Below, piece after piece: positions 14,586 to 57,429 of a stretch of 57,429 bases of DNA (position 1 is the stretch's first letter; each line of letters begins with the position of its first letter). Both the position numbers and the translations under genes were made by a program. The notes under the pieces are model-generated. The model did no database searches. It saw only the letters and a list, made by a program, of their open reading frames with translations, and was not told the origin of the DNA. Origin of the DNA: Deltaproteobacteria bacterium (GTDB lineage: Bacteria > Desulfobacterota > Syntrophorhabdia > Syntrophorhabdales > JANXAF01); contig JAOADT010000015.1 in assembly GCA_026417175.1 (NCBI GenBank), forward strand, positions 1-57,429, in the 5' to 3' direction.

Positions 14586-16093
14586 ATTTAAAGGAAATTT
14601 TGGAAAAATACAGAGATTCCGTGATTGACAAATGGATCGCGAAACTGAAAAGTGAAGTAAGTGAAAGGTATAGTAAAAGACCTATAGAGGAGCTCTTCAT
14701 AACTGTAAGTGCGGCCTACGATGCCAGTACGTATGTGCTTCTATTTGATGATTATTCAAAGATAGATTGCCACATAGAGTGGATCACAAGAGCGAGGCTT
14801 CATGGTGGTTTCACTCTCTCTGAAGTTCAGCACGCATACGAGTTTGTGAGAGAGCTTCTTGTACCAGTATTTCTTAAAAATTTGAAAGGTCCAGAGCTTG
14901 AAGATGCCCTCATTAAACTAAACAAATGCACCTTTTACACCATAACCCAGTTTAGTAAGAACTTTCAATCCTTACATGAAAGTAAAATAAAGGAACATGC
15001 TCAGAATTTGGAAAGGATTGTTGAGGAAAGAACAAGGGAATTAGTAGAATCCGAATCAAAATATAGAACACTTGTTGAAGACATAAACGACGGATACTTT
15101 GTAAATCAAGACGGTTTAATAGTCTTTGCAAATAAGGCTTATTGTGAGATGCACGGTTATCACCCTTCAGAGGTCATAGGAAGACCTTACCACGATTTTA
15201 TAGCTTCCGAACATCTGGATTTTGTGAAGAGCTTATACGAAGAGAGAATAAACAAAGGAGAGGCGCCCGAGCTATACGTTTATTTAAGAAAGCATAAAAA
15301 CGGTAAATGTTTTCCAACAGAAAATAAGGTCAAAATCATAGAATACAACGGACGCAGGGCAGTGGCAGGTATATGTAGAGATATCACTGAAAGGGTTGAG
15401 ATGGAAAGAAAGATAAGGGAGACAGAAAATCTAGCTCATATTGGAAGACTTACGACCTCTTTAGCACACGAAATAAGAAACCCTTTGTCGTCAGTAAAAC
15501 TAAACGTACAAATTCTTAAAAAGAATCCCAAAATAGATGGAAACGATAGAAGACGAATCGAAATAGTGGCTAATGAGATTACTAGACTAGAACGCATTCT
15601 TACAGAAATGCTAGACTTCGCTAGACCCATAAGACTGAAACTTGAAGAGGCGGACCTGAACCAGATAGTTGAGTCTAGCATAGATGTAGTGGAAGTGAAG
15701 GTAAAAGAAAAAGGGCTAATCATAAAGAAAAAATACTCAAAAAACCTCCCTATCCTTTATCTTGATAAGGACATGATTGAACAGGCAGTGATAAACATAC
15801 TATTGAATTCGATAGACGTACTTGACAGGGGAGGCAAAATAACAGTCCAAACCAGGATGGCAGATGAGAATGGTTCGGTAGCCCTCGACATCTACGATAA
15901 TGGCCCGGGTATAGAAAAAGATGTTCTTCCTTTTATATTCGACCCTTTTTTCAGTAACAAAAAGAAAGGAACTGGGCTTGGCCTTTTTAACGTCAAAAGG
16001 ATTATAGACGCACACGGTGGAAAAGTGGAAGCTCACCCTGGGAAAAAAAATGGGGTACACTTCTCCATATTACTTCCACGTGAGGGATTGTGA
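14582..16093 (+). CDS. PAS-domain sensor histidine kinase
   Basis: A 503-aa soluble kinase with no membrane segments. Order: RsbRD-like N-terminal helical domain (about 1-135, VIDKWIAKL and HGGFTLSEVQHAYEFVREL), a coiled linker, one PAS domain (about 155-270), a HisKA domain with phospho-acceptor His296 (SLAHEIRNP), and an ATPase domain with NILLNSIDVLD, DNGPGI and GTGLGLFNVKRI. It is therefore likely to sense a cytoplasmic signal. It overlaps the preceding gene by 4 bases (ATGA) and the next regulator gene by one base, so kinase and regulator form a co-translated pair. Confidence 0.93.
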   Translation: MNLKEILEKYRDSVIDKWIAKLKSEVSERYSKRPIEELFITVSAAYDASTYVLLFDDYSKIDCHIEWITRARLHGGFTLSEVQHAYEFVRELLVPVFLKNLKGPELEDALIKLNKCTFYTITQFSKNFQSLHESKIKEHAQNLERIVEERTRELVESESKYRTLVEDINDGYFVNQDGLIVFANKAYCEMHGYHPSEVIGRPYHDFIASEHLDFVKSLYEERINKGEAPELYVYLRKHKNGKCFPTENKVKIIEYNGRRAVAGICRDITERVEMERKIRETENLAHIGRLTTSLAHEIRNPLSSVKLNVQILKKNPKIDGNDRRRIEIVANEITRLERILTEMLDFARPIRLKLEEADLNQIVESSIDVVEVKVKEKGLIIKKKYSKNLPILYLDKDMIEQAVINILLNSIDVLDRGGKITVQTRMADENGSVALDIYDNGPGIEKDVLPFIFDPFFSNKKKGTGLGLFNVKRIIDAHGGKVEAHPGKKNGVHFSILLPREGL

Positions 16094-17469
16094 TGAAAAA
16101 TACGATACTCATAATAGACGACGAAGAACCTATACTAGAATCTCTCGAGATGTATTTCAGTGAGAAAGGATTTAACGTTATATGTGCCAAAACCGCAGAA
16201 GAAGGTATGCATAAAACTCTATTATTCGATCCGGATCTTATCATTCTCGATGTAAGACTACCCGATCAGGATGGGCTGGAATTGATAAAAAGACTAAAAG
16301 AAAAAAAGAAGGATACTCAAGTCATAATAATAACCGCTTTTCATGACATGGAGACGACCATTAAAGCGGTCAAAAGAGGCGCCTACGAATACATTCCAAA
16401 ACCTCTAGATATAGAAGAACTTGACTCTGCTGTATGTAAGGCCCTAAAGGCAGAAGAAAAAGTCAAAGAAAAAAATGGCCTAATCATTGAGAATCCCTCA
16501 ACTCATGAGCGAGGTAAACTCATAGGTAAAAGCAAAGCTATGAAGGAGATATTTAAAGCTATAGGTATCCTCTCAGAAAACAGAGTTACGGTACTTATAG
16601 AAGGTGAGACGGGTACAGGGAAAGAACTCATAGCGCAGGCTATCCATTACAACAGTCCATTTAGAGATCATCCATTCATTCCTATTAACTGTTCTGCAAT
16701 AGTGGGAACGCTTCTTGAAAGTGAACTTTTCGGTCATGAGAAAGGGTCGTTCACAGGTGCCCATTCCACAAAAAGGGGAAAGTTTGAGCTCGCCGGAGAC
16801 GGCACAATATTTCTGGATGAGGTAAGCGAGATACCTTACGAATTACAGGCAAAGCTTTTAAGATTCTTACAAGAAAAGGAATTCGAAAGAGTTGGAGGAG
16901 AAAAAACTTTAAAGTCCAACGCCAGAGTAATAGCTGCAACTAATAAAAGTCTCTCCCAACTTGTAAGGGAAGGAAAATTTAGAGAGGATCTCTATTATCG
17001 GCTATCTGTAGCGAAGATTGAAGTGCCCCCTCTAAGAAAAAGAAAATCAGATATACCTTTGCTTGTTGAATATCTCATAGGCAGAATAAACTGCGAATTG
17101 AAGAGGAATATAAGAAAGGTAGAGGAGCGGGCAATTCAAAGAATGATGGAGTATGATTGGCCCGGAAATGTCAGAGAATTGGAGAATGTTTTAACGAGAA
17201 TAGCAATTGAGCTGAGAGAAGAAATAATAACAGAAGAGCATATTATTCCCCTGCTTGAGGGTAAAGGAACGGATCAAAAAGGCAGTGTCGTGGGACATCT
17301 TCTGAGTCTATCCGCCGTTGAAAAAGAACATATAAGAAGGGTCTTAGAATATACCGGATGGCATTTCGGCAAAGCATGCCAGATTCTTGGGATATCCAGA
17401 CCCTCCCTTAGAAAAAAAATAAGGGAATATAATCTACAGAAGGAAAAAAATAATCTGTTGGCATTCTGA
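16093..17469 (+). CDS. NtrC-family sigma-54-dependent response regulator
   Basis: A 458-aa protein with a receiver domain (Asp53 in ILDVRLPD), an AAA+ sigma-54 activation domain (Walker A GETGTGKE; GSFTGA loop at about 218-223, an accepted variant of GAFTGA; Walker B GTIFLDE) and a C-terminal Fis-type helix-turn-helix (VEKEHIRRVLEYTGWHFGKA). ATG at 16093 overlaps the kinase stop by one base; a GTG one codon earlier is also possible. It is expected to remodel sigma-54 RNA polymerase at -24/-12 promoters. The strongest such promoter visible is 240 bases downstream, before the Liv-type operon. Confidence 0.94.
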   Translation: MKNTILIIDDEEPILESLEMYFSEKGFNVICAKTAEEGMHKTLLFDPDLIILDVRLPDQDGLELIKRLKEKKKDTQVIIITAFHDMETTIKAVKRGAYEYIPKPLDIEELDSAVCKALKAEEKVKEKNGLIIENPSTHERGKLIGKSKAMKEIFKAIGILSENRVTVLIEGETGTGKELIAQAIHYNSPFRDHPFIPINCSAIVGTLLESELFGHEKGSFTGAHSTKRGKFELAGDGTIFLDEVSEIPYELQAKLLRFLQEKEFERVGGEKTLKSNARVIAATNKSLSQLVREGKFREDLYYRLSVAKIEVPPLRKRKSDIPLLVEYLIGRINCELKRNIRKVEERAIQRMMEYDWPGNVRELENVLTRIAIELREEIITEEHIIPLLEGKGTDQKGSVVGHLLSLSAVEKEHIRRVLEYTGWHFGKACQILGISRPSLRKKIREYNLQKEKNNLLAF

Positions 17470-17487: not shown

Positions 17488-17652
17488 ATGAAAACGCTAA
17501 AAGAGATAAAAAGAGAGCACATTATGACCGTTTTGAAGAGTACAGGATGGGATATAAAAGAAGCCAGTAAGATACTCAAGGTGAAAGAGACCTATCTAAA
17601 GAGAGAGATAGAAAAGATGAAAAAAGAGATGAAAGTATCTTTCAAAGATTGA
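17488..17652 (+). CDS. 54-aa Fis-type helix-turn-helix protein
   Basis: The product is almost only a Fis/NtrC-type DNA-binding domain: LKEIKREHIMTVLKSTGW, then EASKILKV and LKREIEKMKKE. It aligns with the C-terminal domain of the adjacent response regulator (KEHIRRVLEYTGWHFGKACQIL), sharing EHI, VL, TGW, A and IL at matching positions. ATG at 17488 is chosen because a later ATG would cut the domain; TTG at 17470 is possible. No clear Shine-Dalgarno. I infer it binds the same sites as the regulator, competing or co-binding without a receiver or AAA+ domain. Confidence 0.7.
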   Translation: MKTLKEIKREHIMTVLKSTGWDIKEASKILKVKETYLKREIEKMKKEMKVSFKD

Positions 17653-17707
17653 AAGATTCTTTTAATCAGCACAAACTGTCACTTAAGACTGACCATTGAT
17701 ATCTATC

Positions 17708-17723
17708 TGGCACATAACTTGCT
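17708..17723 (+). promoter_or_regulatory. sigma-54 promoter of the Liv-type transporter operon
   Basis: TGGCAC, 5 bases, TTGCT: a full match to the conserved core of the -24/-12 consensus, with GG (17709-17710) and GC (17721-17722) 10 bases apart. Predicted start is about 17733, giving a ~20-base leader with a GGGGGG ribosome-binding site before the ATG at 17755. Confidence 0.85.
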
Positions 17724-17754
17724 TTTGGTTAGATTAAAAAATTGGGGGGTTATC

Positions 17755-19014
17755 ATGAGAAGGCTTATCGGATCGTTACTTATAATCTCTTTTCTCTTTT
17801 TTACGGGAAGTTACTCTTATTCAGCTGAGAAACCAATAACTATTGGTGCCCCACTTGCTACTGCTTTTCTCTATGGATGGGTAGCTGAAAGAGGAATAAA
17901 GCTCGCAGTTGAAGAGATCAACGCAAAGGGTGGTGTAAACGTCGCTGGAAAGAAAAGATCTTTCAAGGTAGAGGTGATTGATACAAGGGATCTGGAACCA
18001 GGGGTACCAGTGAGCGAAGCACTTCTTGCAGTTGAAAAACTTATTCTTGAAAAAAAAGCTGACTTTCTTATTGGTGGACCTGTTAGGTCAGAAGCAGCAC
18101 TTGCGGCAATGGATATTGTAAGTAAGTATAAAAAGATAAGCATTATCACTACAGGCGTTCTCACACCGCTTCTTACCCAAAAAGTAGTCGAGAACTATGA
18201 CAAGTATAAATACACCTTCAGAAACACAAATCACGTGGGAAATATGATGAAGGAATTCATAACCTTTTTGGACGAGATCCAAAAACCATTCGGTTTTAAA
18301 AGTGCATACATAATGGTTCAGGATGTTGAACACGCACGAAGAGGTGGGGAAGTCATGAAAAAAGCTCTCTCTGAGAAAGGTTGGGAAGTAATTGATATGA
18401 AAATATATCCCACAGGGACAACTGATTACTCTGTGGGACTCGCCGATGCTAAAAACAAAGGCGCAGACATACTCTTCCTATGGATGGATATGCCTGAAAG
18501 TGCCATTCTACTTAAACAGTGGTCCGATTTAAAAATGAAAGCTTTACCGATAGGCTTCGTTTGCGCTGCAGAACAACCGGGATTTTGGAAAGCCACAGGT
18601 GGTAAAGGTGAATATCTTATAGTAAACGTCGTAAATGGAGGAAATGCTCCTGGTAATATAACTCCGTGGACTATAAAGTTTGTAGACGCATACAAAAAAC
18701 GTTGGGGACTCGAACCTGAGGGCTATGGAACATCCTCTAGTTATATGGCCGTCTATCAGCTAAAAGAAGCTATCGAAAAAGCAGGCTCTATAGATTCTGA
18801 AAAAGTGGTTACTGCCCTTGAGGATCTGGACATGGTGGGTGTTTATGGTAGGATGAAATTTGATAACAAATCACATCAGATAATACCTTCATTTAATCCT
18901 AAAGAAGGCGCGGTTACATGCATATTCCAATGGCAGGCCGGAAACAGAGTCCAGGTTTTTCCTTCGACAGTGGCACAAGGAAAAGTGATGCTTCCCCCGT
19001 GGGTAAAAAGGTAA
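17755..19014 (+). CDS. ABC transporter substrate-binding protein, LivJ/LivK type
   Basis: A 419-aa periplasmic binding protein. The N-terminal signal peptide has two Arg, a hydrophobic core and a YSAE cleavage region, followed by ITIGAPLATAF...GIKLAVEEINAKGGV, the typical start of the type I periplasmic fold. ATG at 17755 follows GGGGGG; an upstream in-frame start at 17719 lies inside the sigma-54 promoter and is rejected. Members of this family carry branched-chain amino acids but also aromatic acids, amides and urea. The linked CoA ligase favours a carboxylic acid substrate, as inference. Confidence 0.9.
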   Translation: MRRLIGSLLIISFLFFTGSYSYSAEKPITIGAPLATAFLYGWVAERGIKLAVEEINAKGGVNVAGKKRSFKVEVIDTRDLEPGVPVSEALLAVEKLILEKKADFLIGGPVRSEAALAAMDIVSKYKKISIITTGVLTPLLTQKVVENYDKYKYTFRNTNHVGNMMKEFITFLDEIQKPFGFKSAYIMVQDVEHARRGGEVMKKALSEKGWEVIDMKIYPTGTTDYSVGLADAKNKGADILFLWMDMPESAILLKQWSDLKMKALPIGFVCAAEQPGFWKATGGKGEYLIVNVVNGGNAPGNITPWTIKFVDAYKKRWGLEPEGYGTSSSYMAVYQLKEAIEKAGSIDSEKVVTALEDLDMVGVYGRMKFDNKSHQIIPSFNPKEGAVTCIFQWQAGNRVQVFPSTVAQGKVMLPPWVKR

Positions 19015-54810: not shown

Positions 54811-54844
54811 GTAAAGAAAGAAAGGCTACCCCGGAAGAGTAGCC
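54811..54844 (-). terminator. rho-independent terminator of the PEP-CTERM gene run
   Basis: On the minus strand GGCTAC, 9-base loop, GTAGCC (54844-54824), followed by TTTCTTTCTTTAC. It lies 22 bases after the stop of the last PEP-CTERM gene and separates it from the export operon. Confidence 0.7.
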
Positions 54845-54866: not shown

Positions 54867-55592
54867 TTATTTCTTCCTTCTAAACCTTAAAATTCCTAAC
54901 ATACTCAATCCGGACCCAAGAAGAATCGCCGTGTGTGGTAGGGGTACAGGTGGTGTCCCAATTGGTGCTTTCTGTCCTTTTACTCTGGAGAGTGAAAAGT
55001 CTTTGGTCCATGATCCATTCCATCCGTTGAGCTTTTCCGCGAAAAGAAATATCCCCGTTTCTCTATTATCAATCCCGTAAGGTGGCCAAATACCATCTGT
55101 CACAAGTGCTCCTTTTATATCTTTTATTCTGAAATCAAAACTTCCAAGAGCATCCCCAGATTCTCCCCACCCGAATTGGTAAACGTTTCCGGAAATAAGT
55201 GTTGTGTCCGTGCCGTATGTCTTTCCATTTATTTTCACATTTCCTTTTTCGACGACTTCCTTCATTTCGCCTGAAACTGATGAGGGTTTGTTGTCAGATC
55301 CAAGAGTGATTGTCAATTTCATAAACAGAGTCGTTTCATATCCTGTACCCGAGAGATAAATAGGCTCTGAAGAATCTGTAAGCTTAATCGTGATATCCTT
55401 CGCGACTACTTCGAAAGATTTTGTTTTGTAATCATACTTAATCCCTGCCCCTGAAACTTTTCCAAACAATATAAGAGGATAGTCCAGATCCTCACTGATC
55501 CCCAGGAGAGCAGAATGCCCATGACCAGAATTTAAAACGAAGAAAAAACAACAGCTCAATAGAAGCAACTCAAAAATCTTCTTCCTGAACAT
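54867..55592 (-). CDS. PEP-CTERM-type exported protein (tandem paralogue)
   Basis: A 241-aa protein with a signal peptide and a C-terminal tail PVPLPHTAILLGSGLS...RFRRKK. The body shares with its neighbours LSGTGYETTLFM, GNVKINGKTYGT, TLISGNVYQFGWG, FDFRIKDIKGALV and WNGSWTKDFSL. No enzymatic motif is seen; a secreted beta-rich structural or matrix protein is the simplest guess. It starts inside the previous gene's stop (TAATG) with AAGGAGGT upstream, so it is co-translated. A terminator follows. Confidence 0.85.
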   Translation of the reverse strand: MFRKKIFELLLLSCCFFFVLNSGHGHSALLGISEDLDYPLILFGKVSGAGIKYDYKTKSFEVVAKDITIKLTDSSEPIYLSGTGYETTLFMKLTITLGSDNKPSSVSGEMKEVVEKGNVKINGKTYGTDTTLISGNVYQFGWGESGDALGSFDFRIKDIKGALVTDGIWPPYGIDNRETGIFLFAEKLNGWNGSWTKDFSLSRVKGQKAPIGTPPVPLPHTAILLGSGLSMLGILRFRRKK

Positions 55593-56293
55593 TACGACCT
55601 CCTTCCTGTGAGGTTCACAAGTTTTCTAAAACAGAATAAGCCAAATCCCGATCCAAAAAGAAGAATAGATGGAGGAATAGGTACTGGGGCCTTGTCGCCT
55701 TCTGCCTCATAAAGCTTAAAATCTTTGGTCCACGAGCCATCCCATCCAGAAAGCTTTGTAGCTTTAAAGTACATTCCTGTAAGGACATCATACCTCCATA
55801 TCTGGTCTTTTACAAATAAGCTTTCTTTTGGGTCAAGCTCAATGAGCATATCGAAAGATCCCAAATCCGGCCCTGTACCCCATCCAAATTTCGTTATATA
55901 ACCAAAAAGGAGTAAATCATTAACTTTATACGTATTTTGGCCTACGTTAATACTTCCCTTATCAACCCACTCGCTCATGTATCCTTTCTGAAAGCCAGGC
56001 TCTCCTTGCGGGTCTATCGATAGGTATACTGCCACAAAAAGTTTGGTAGTAAAGTCTTTCCCTGAAAGATAGTACTCATCTCCTGAAGACAACGTCAATA
56101 TGAGGTCAGTTGCCTCTAAGGTAAAATACCCCTCGTTTTTGGAATCGTAGTAACTGTAGGTTACAGTACCGTCACCAAACATTATGTCCGGATATCCAAG
56201 ACTTCCTTTGATTCCTAAAAGTGCCGCGTGTGAAAAGGTAAACCCAAGTAGCATCAAACATAAACTCGTTACAACCACTAGTTTGTGTCTCAT
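55592..56293 (-). CDS. PEP-CTERM-type exported protein (tandem paralogue)
   Basis: A 233-aa protein with signal peptide (MRHKLVVVTSLCLMLLGF...HA) and tail PVPIPPSILLFGSGF...GRRS. It shares the paralogue pattern: YYLSGKDFTTKLFV, GSINVGQNTYKV, DLLLFGYITKFGWG, FDMLIEL and WDGSWTKDFKL. ATG at 56293 follows GGAGGAGG by 5 bases; the TTG one codon earlier is not needed. Confidence 0.85.
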   Translation of the reverse strand: MRHKLVVVTSLCLMLLGFTFSHAALLGIKGSLGYPDIMFGDGTVTYSYYDSKNEGYFTLEATDLILTLSSGDEYYLSGKDFTTKLFVAVYLSIDPQGEPGFQKGYMSEWVDKGSINVGQNTYKVNDLLLFGYITKFGWGTGPDLGSFDMLIELDPKESLFVKDQIWRYDVLTGMYFKATKLSGWDGSWTKDFKLYEAEGDKAPVPIPPSILLFGSGFGLFCFRKLVNLTGRRS

Positions 56294-56296
56294 CAA

Positions 56297-56614
56297 ATCC
56301 TCCTCCTAAATATTAAAAATATTAAATTAACACTGCTCATTTGCCACATATCCTATTATCAGCAAAGCCCAAATAAACTCTCGCAATCCCCGATTATTTT
56401 CCCTTCCCATCATACTCACTCATACCCCTTCCAACTTTTTTCTCTACCGCGCCCTTCAGTAAATACCTTGCAGCAAATATTACTCCCTGTTTTTCGGCAC
56501 ATAAACCCTTTGGTTTCCCAACTTTCGCTTGGCAACGAACTCCTGGTTAACTTACATAAAAAGTTAACCCGCCACCACAAAAGGGGCGGGTTTTTTGTAT
56601 TGCTCTATTTTCTC
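56297..56614. other. 318-base non-coding stretch with tandem hairpins
   Basis: No credible gene lies here; the plus-strand frame across it has no ribosome-binding site, signal or similarity. It holds the leader of the gene at 56293 and, toward the right end, four adjacent inverted repeats: 56503-56516 (AAACC/GGTTT), 56518-56532 (CCAA/TTGG around CTTTCGC), 56545-56569 and 56566-56592. The rest (56297-56500) is AT- and pyrimidine-rich on the plus strand with no clear motif. Confidence 0.6.
56545..56592. terminator. two overlapping hairpins, bidirectional terminator
   Basis: Hairpin A is GGTTAACTT/AAGTTAACC (56545-56553 and 56561-56569, 7-base loop). Hairpin B is AACCCGCC/GGCGGGTT (56566-56573 and 56585-56592, 11-base loop). 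B is followed by TTTTTT on plus and by AACTTTTT on minus, so it can end transcripts in either direction, including the PEP-CTERM gene at 56615. A and B share AACC and cannot form together. Confidence 0.7.
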
Positions 56615-57355
56615 CTACTTTCTCTTTCTTGATTTAACCCTTAAAAGGCCAAAAACGCTTAGTCCGGAGCCCAAAAGTACAACGCTCGTTGGCAGTGGTA
56701 CCGGTGGCGAATCCGTCGGCCCAAGTTTACCCTTAGACTTCTCCACTCTAAAATCATTATTAAAATTTCCAGGCCATGCGTTCTCGCTCCATGCGTAGAG
56801 GTAAGATGTGGTATTTGGGGCACTTGGCCAAAAACCGTCATCAACTAACTTTCCTTTCAAGTCCTTTATTTGAAAGTCGAATATGGCTGTCTTGCCTCCG
56901 TCAGCATCATAAAATCCGAATGCCCAAACAGTCCCCGAAAGAAGCGTGGTTCCCGTGGAATACGTATTGCTACCTACCTTTACGGAGCCTGTCTCGACTT
57001 CTATGGTAAGCGTACCTAAGTTTCCTATGTAAATTCCCCCTTGAAGTGTACCACTGTTAAAATCTATGTTCACAGCTGCTGAAGTACTGTATTTCTGACC
57101 TGTAAGCGTGTAAAAGGGCTTCGGAGATGATAATAAAATGACGATAGCCTGAGAGACCAATTCAAAAGTTTTATCTTGCGCATCATATGCAAAAAAACCA
57201 TCCTTTGTAGTGTCAGTAATCAATATCATAGGTATCCCGGGCTCAAGTGGCGGTGTGAACTTGGAAGAGACAAGCGCACCCATTGAGTCGCTCGTCAACA
57301 AAAACCAAAAAACCAAAAAGCAGACTATTGAAAAGGAAATTTTTCTTTTACTCAT
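56615..57355 (-). CDS. PEP-CTERM-type exported protein (tandem paralogue)
   Basis: A 246-aa protein with a signal peptide (IVCFLVFWFLLTSDSMG) and tail PVPLPTSVVLLGSGLS...KSRKRK. It shares TLTGQKYSTSAAVNI, GSVKVGSNTYSTGTTLLSG, FDFQIKDLKGKLVDDGFWP and WPGNFNNDF with the two downstream genes. Starts 5 bases after the stop of another PEP-CTERM gene with GGGGG upstream. Confidence 0.85.
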   Translation of the reverse strand: MSKRKISFSIVCFLVFWFLLTSDSMGALVSSKFTPPLEPGIPMILITDTTKDGFFAYDAQDKTFELVSQAIVILLSSPKPFYTLTGQKYSTSAAVNIDFNSGTLQGGIYIGNLGTLTIEVETGSVKVGSNTYSTGTTLLSGTVWAFGFYDADGGKTAIFDFQIKDLKGKLVDDGFWPSAPNTTSYLYAWSENAWPGNFNNDFRVEKSKGKLGPTDSPPVPLPTSVVLLGSGLSVFGLLRVKSRKRK

Positions 57356-57360
57356 TGGTA

Positions 57361-57429
57361 TTACCCCCTCTTGTTTTTTCTGAATCTAATTAGACCGATC
57401 GCGCTCAAACCAGATCCAAGAAGGATAAG
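57361..57429 (-). CDS. PEP-CTERM-type protein, C-terminal fragment
   Basis: Reading in from the window edge on the minus strand gives LILLGSGLSAIGLIRFRKNK and a stop at 57361. This is the membrane helix and basic tail of a fourth protein of the same family. The rest of the gene is beyond the window. Confidence 0.75.
   Translation of the reverse strand, partial: LILLGSGLSAIGLIRFRKNKRG

Follow-up and report, generated by a model that had tools for sequence, protein, structure and literature searches.

Bidirectional intrinsic terminators consist of a GC-rich stem with an A-tract before it and a U-tract after it, located just behind a gene. Attenuators and the expression platforms of riboswitches instead rely on two overlapping hairpins, one of them with a U-tract, whose folds are close in energy, and intergenic small RNA genes of bacteria end in a long gap at an intrinsic terminator that is not preceded by a gene on the same strand. 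The hairpin block described here has features in common with each of these, and differs from each. As compared with bidirectional terminators, it is stronger in the direction pointing away from the gene that it follows, and the U-tract on the minus strand is displaced by AAC. Unlike in attenuators and riboswitch platforms, no gene follows in the window on the strand that carries the U-tract, no aptamer was matched, and the order in which the hairpins would form on minus is unsuited. Unlike small RNA genes, it lacks a convincing promoter, a relative, and a target signal, the last as judged by a blunt test.

The gap and its neighbouring genes

The stretch of DNA analysed (the window, 57,429 nucleotides) is contig C6 of an assembly with 2.15 Mb in 97 contigs. 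The hairpins lie in a gap of 318 nt (56297-56614) flanked by two minus-strand genes, which we consider non-coding on the basis of the ORF list and codon usage. The gene upstream of the gap (56615-57355) encodes a protein with a PEP-CTERM/VPLPA-like tail (TIGR03370, 17.9 bits, under the cut-off of 25.35), and sequence comparison identified the next gene (55592-56293) as a paralogue of both this gene and the one at 54867-55592. The three genes form a tandem with pairwise identities of 27-37%. Likeness to PEP-CTERM/VPLPA sorting tails was observed at the C-termini of two of the three paralogues, under the curated cut-offs, and the profile search of the C-termini gave no such match for the 55592 gene. 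The tandem at 54867-57429 comprises at least three paralogous proteins, which are probably exported, and the residues of segment 57356-57429 suggest the last part of a fourth.

The tandem adjoins an EPS export gene of the PEP-CTERM type and an outer-membrane gene, again with matches under cut-off. No such tandem turned up near nine of the order's EPS export genes, in stretches of at most 20 kb each; L033 and L037, two of these stretches, each gave a lone weak match. In a scan of genome contigs, relatives of the EPS export protein were found in a Syntrophorhabdus sp. MAG (60% identity) and in a Flavobacteriaceae MAG (29% identity). The former match points to kinship with Syntrophorhabdales, which is accordingly the probable name of the order.

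Codon usage in gene segments read in the right frame had a minimum of 0.004 and a mean of 0.146 per codon, compared with -0.07 for wrong frames. The possibility that the gap is a decayed gene was rejected, five of its six frames scoring under every right-frame gene segment. Minus frame 0 was dismissed as well, since its score of 0.004 equals the gene minimum, yet the frame contains 8 stops in 106 codons. A plus-strand ORF of 115 aa spanning the gap was also discarded, and in view of its codon usage (-0.26 per codon) the gap was treated as non-coding. On reading the sequence, a TTG-started frame of 39 codons was seen after AGGAG in the minus leader (56416-56535); this frame scores -0.15 per codon over the gap and is not gene-like. 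The minus leader is rich in purines, and CsrA binding and a leader peptide came into consideration as possible readings of it.

The hairpins and their terminator scores

All four stems proposed in the first-pass annotation are present. Hairpin 1 (56503-56516; 5 bp, loop of 4 nt) and hairpin 2 (56518-56532; 4 bp, loop of 7 nt) have energies of -2.0 and -0.5 kcal/mol on plus, and are weak and of chance grade. Hairpin 3 (56545-56569) is an AU-rich 9-bp palindrome with a loop of 7 nt (-8.3 kcal/mol on plus), and hairpin 4 (56566-56592) is a GC-rich stem of 8 bp plus 2 bp with a bulge (-17.2 kcal/mol on plus, -17.8 kcal/mol on minus). Hairpins 3 and 4 share AACC at 56566-56569. Directly after the CCCGCC/GGCGGG core of hairpin 4 follows a T6 stretch (56591-56596), the U-tract of the plus strand, the first two Ts of which also pair with the AA at 56566-56567 and thereby close the 8-bp stem. 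On the opposite side, an A5 stretch (56558-56562) on plus corresponds to U5 on minus, a displaced U-tract that is separated from the full stem by 3 nt (AAC).

The 97-nt block contains three stems of at least 5 bp (mean 1.8 in shuffles) and nine of at least 4 bp (mean 5.8). A stem of at least 9 bp together with one of at least 8 bp was found in 7 of 5000 dinucleotide shuffles of 97 nt; hairpins 3 and 4 together exceed chance. In the whole window there are 12 perfect stems of at least 8 bp with loops of 3-12 nt, nine of which lie inside genes by reading of the ORF list. Those outside genes are hairpins 3 and 4, and a perfect 9-bp hairpin with a loop of 3 nt at 17637-17657, in the gap before a LivK-type gene.

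The block as a whole folds weakly, with z-scores of -1.33 on plus and -2.02 on minus (5 of 200 shuffles equally good), and the z-score of the whole gap on minus is -0.55. Hairpins 3 and 4 had initially been described as mutually exclusive. Their overlap is real, albeit of 4 nt only, but strict exclusion did not hold, as the pair coexists when folded together with hairpin 3 keeping 6 of its 9 bp. On plus (56490-56597), an arrangement that combines the complete hairpin 3 with a long-range AAACCC/GGGUUU helix is favoured over the full hairpin 4 by 2.1 kcal/mol, and equilibrium probabilities for the five outermost pairs of hairpin 4 are as low as 0.08-0.32. On minus, two alternative arrangements lie within 0.7 kcal/mol of each other and hairpin 4 is favoured, with all pairs but the outermost at 0.72-1.0. 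The calculated energies do not forbid alternative folding of hairpins 3 and 4, and the equilibrium energies of the plus strand would count somewhat against an efficient terminator.

Terminators were evaluated with a score, d, that combines hairpin and U-tract according to a formula which we take to be that of d'Aubenton Carafa, and only sites with a tail score of at least 2.5 were scored. The plus-strand site at 56590 reached d = 32.4, the best of eight sites with d > 0 on both strands of the 57-kb window. Only 2 of 40 block-shuffled windows contained at least one site with d ≥ 32 (mean 0.05 sites). On plus, a stable GC-rich stem is followed by a U-rich tract to an extent beyond chance. In the minus direction, behind the 56615 gene, the tail is interrupted (UUAACUUUUU) and scores 2.44 at best, under the filter; d calculated by hand is about -9, and the best minus form of hairpin 4 occupies rank 30 in a simpler terminator ranking. 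The layout itself is bidirectional, with A5 before and T6 after the same stem; TTTTT is found within 9 nt of a random window position in 2.7% of cases and AAAAA in 2.5%. The suggestions that hairpin 4 is terminator-like, and that plus is the stronger of the two strands, are both in line with these values. On minus, as had also been proposed, hairpin 4 sits where the 56615 gene should end.

A comparison was provided by the sister gene at 54867-55592, behind which a terminator-like hairpin is found in the sense orientation (54824-54844, minus, d = 10.9), 22 nt past the stop of the 54867 gene, with a longer form of the stem starting about 18 nt past it. The 8-bp stem of hairpin 4 begins 22 nt past the stop of the 56615 gene, much like this sense terminator.

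For calibration on the genome, the window and 14 further stretches (315,953 bases, 303 crude genes) were analysed. The sample contained 22 sites with d > 0, of which 14 were labelled as inside crude ORFs. With tails of at least 2.5 only, seven sites had d ≥ 10 and two had d ≥ 30, the stronger at L052:8458 and the second at 56590, which the crude caller had labelled as inside an ORF owing to the 115-aa frame across the gap. Strong intrinsic terminators are few in the 316-kb sample, suggesting that termination is mostly achieved by other means. Another CCCGCC..GGCGGG hairpin of the same genome (C24) lies between two long converging crude ORFs, and is also spanned by a minus frame of 105 codons. 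Two further sites of the genome were recorded separately. A terminator-like site at L053:11201 (minus, C77; d 19.6) is positioned 10 nt before a crude-caller gene and behind a promoter-like TTGACT..TTAAAT; it gave no Rfam match at gathering score and is a possible leader attenuator. At L056:1620-1700 (plus, C4), a tiny lysine-rich ORF, MATKKKATTKKKATGKKK, is followed by a terminator hairpin with d 21.0.

Taken as a whole, we regard the packed hairpins, with some reservation, as an intrinsic (Rho-independent) terminator that would work in both directions and that follows the minus-strand gene 56615-57355, and not as a gene switch. On minus, hairpin 4 would mark, and weakly stop, the end of the 56615 mRNA, so that part of the transcription could continue into the 55592 paralogue. 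Antisense or spurious transcription on plus would meet a strong stop at hairpin 4 before entering the 56615 gene. Hairpin 3 would be an AU-rich neighbour beside the terminator, and hairpins 1 and 2 may be put down to chance. Termination of RNA polymerase at hairpin 4, and the direction in which it is stronger, are what we infer from the sequence. No protein gene precedes hairpin 4 on plus, its better direction, and it would be slightly unusual for one of the rare strong terminators to be used against antisense transcription; the strength on plus could serve either an antisense stop or the end of a small RNA.

Relatives of the block and alternative readings

The block is single-copy, which answers in the negative the question of whether it is repeated in the genome. 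A repeat or mobile element was rejected, with no second genome copy of the block, of the palindrome (at most 2 mismatches) or of the structure model. A DNA search in 60 genomes (the genome itself and 59 relatives, at an E cut-off of 10 that admits mostly chance rows) gave no relative of the hairpin block among the matches listed. Only two of these rows had E < 0.001, one being the window's match to itself and the other a row of 30 nt that lies clear of the hairpins. At E 0.001, the same type of search in 395 genomes of the phylum, which include the genome itself and overlap with the 60, returned the genome itself only. A structure model from the block alone, run on 46 genomes of the order including its own, likewise recovered itself only, with five further rows at E 0.17-0.70. 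The other genomes listed in the 60-genome DNA search and the 46-genome model search include none of the same genus. The search for homologues in which covariation could be assessed thus yielded no homologous sequence in the genomes searched. The 30-nt row, outside the hairpins at 56432-56461, agrees in 28 of 30 nt with G044 (E 1e-5), where it falls at the 3' terminus of an ORF whose residues alone suggest an acyl-CoA ligase; we regard it as a probable chance match, and likewise a 45-nt row in G032 (80%, E 0.002) that covers 56588-56630. As a positive control, the 126-nt region around L052:8458 was used in a DNA search of the same 60 genomes. It matched 43 of the 60; these all belong to the 46 genomes of the order, and the 14 from elsewhere gave no match. 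The DNA search therefore does find a conserved short RNA.

Rfam covariance models gave no matches in the window at gathering score. All seven lax matches take in hairpin 4, with scores far under their cut-offs, and the c-di-GMP-I aptamer is not among these families, in agreement with the earlier impression that it does not fit. The antiterminator/terminator switch of the first-pass annotation could not be upheld, despite the small energy difference between the competing folds, as there is no plus-strand gene downstream in the window and the U-tract on minus is interrupted. Nothing found ties switching between hairpins 3 and 4 to a regulated gene.

A leader on the minus strand (attenuator or riboswitch) could in principle control the 55592 gene, with hairpin 4 as the terminator and hairpin 3 as the alternative fold. 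The block is upstream of 55592 on its strand, the minus-strand fold is matched by few shuffles and its two arrangements are nearly equal in energy. We nevertheless consider such a leader very improbable. Hairpin 4, the more stable of the two, also comes first in minus-strand transcription; the sole minus promoter-like site upstream of it (57114-57086) lies inside the 56615 gene, each of the six highest-scoring minus promoter-like sites in 56240-56640 begins downstream of hairpin 4, about 270 nt separate the hairpin from the 55592 start codon, and neither an Rfam match nor a homologue was found. Even less credence is given to hairpin 3 as a DNA operator for a 55592 promoter, a 25-bp palindrome GGTTAACTT-N7-AAGTTAACC. 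This perfect 9+9 palindrome is located upstream of a weak promoter-like TTTATG-17-TAATAT (56505-56477, minus), but the score of the latter, 4.29, is under the median best per 400 nt (5.77), no second palindrome site exists in the genome at up to 2 mismatches, and at 3 mismatches there are 2 other sites compared with 2 in a reversed-pattern control. No sigma-54 site was present in the gap at up to 2 mismatches, and the bare GG-N10-GC pattern had 8 matches in L044 compared with 10.7 in shuffles.

The strongest terminator of the window, without a protein gene before it on plus, might instead be the end of a small RNA gene on the plus strand, of about 105 to 240 nt, ending at about 56597 and partly antisense to the 55592 leader. 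The sole stronger site in the 316-kb sample, L052:8458, does belong to a conserved RNA, and a promoter-like TTAACA-16-TATCCT (9 of 12) is found at 56327-56354 on plus. We nonetheless judge a small RNA gene unlikely. Five promoter-like sites were found where 3.4 are expected, and this one, with a score of 6.47, is little above background: best scores per 400 nt have a median of 5.77 and reach 7.11 at the 90% mark. A hypothetical transcript of 237 nt folds like its shuffles (z -0.11), and neither DNA nor model search gave a relative, while the like DNA search detected the L052:8458 RNA in 43 of 60 genomes. The longest complement to 771 candidate start regions was 10 nt, which 92 of 100 plain shuffles also reach, in a test that is blunt: with the conserved RNA as query it gave no more than 11 nt and failed to pick up the LivK site. 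Among the genomes listed, which include no other of the same genus, the putative RNA was neither conserved nor structured beyond chance. A plain terminator was ranked first because the small RNA has a poor promoter, a shuffle-like fold, complementarity at chance level by this blunt test, and no relative. A more elaborate version, to which we attach very little weight, has an unannotated, lineage-specific RNA of the plus strand running to about 56597 and overlapping the 55592 leader. Its termination would be set by competition between the full terminator and hairpin 3 with the AAACCC/GGGUUU helix, and as an antisense RNA it would decide which paralogue of the PEP-CTERM-like array is made.

A conserved RNA candidate upstream of a tolQ-like gene

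The RNA of the positive control (L052:8458) is a conserved candidate located at L059:1500-1620 on plus (C66 of the same genome, about 68.35-68.47 kb), upstream of a TolQ-like gene with 204.6 and 205.0 bits at two scanned loci (cut-off 221). It exhibits a promoter-like TTGACA..TATAGT, the motif CACCTCC, an invariant core, CTTCTCATAATAACCCCCCTTCCCCC, and a strong terminator. The 20 best-scoring loci of 46 matches have 29 consecutive invariant bases in common, and the 19-nt core is present without mismatch in 39 of 46 genomes of the order. The RNA gave no Rfam match at gathering score; the lowest E in a lax scan was that of a sub-threshold PsrR1 match (26.7 bits compared with 42, E 0.0027). In 395 genomes, its covariance model found 17 genomes of the order at E < 1e-13, and outside the order 14 genomes weakly, at E 7e-5 to 0.01.

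The core is antisense to the Shine-Dalgarno sequence and ATG of the LivK-type gene at 17755, which was assigned from a profile match below cut-off; the predicted target site in the window is 17744-17767 on plus. With a pattern written after seeing both places, only the RNA locus and 17744-17767 were found in the genome itself (reversed-pattern control 0). The other genomes of the order contained 27 second antisense sites, the reversed-pattern control giving 2 in 46 genomes. At 17 of the 27 an ORF of at least 100 aa starts, and at 11 of the 27 a LivK-type protein; nine of these 11 are from one genus (g14) and the other two from two further genera. In the same part of the window, the sole site without mismatch to what is presumably the sigma-54 promoter consensus, TGGCACATAACTTGCT, was noted at 17708-17723 on plus. 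It precedes the LivK-type gene and follows another gene, at 16090-17469, which by its sequence looks like a sigma-54 activator.

The tolQ-upstream RNA is a candidate for a small RNA controlling uptake genes, presumably GcvB-like in idea, or for a tolQ leader. Against the antisense role, a start region that includes an ATG and a G-rich ribosome-binding site may be conserved in its own right, no covariation is seen in the terminator stem because the stem hardly varies, and the RNA could also be a leader of tolQ. The hairpin block was also considered as kin of this RNA and rejected, the covariance model (R2) aligning at 56568-56596 with 7.1 bits and E 5.5 in the terminator part only. A simple alignment of the two had a score of 3.0, reached by none of 500 plain shuffles. 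The tolQ-upstream RNA is unrelated to the hairpin block.

As a terminator, the block is ordinary; its main value is for annotation, in telling which paralogues of the array share a transcript. The terminator calibration is more useful, in that ranking the rare strong terminators of the scanned stretches led to a conserved RNA without a match in Rfam.
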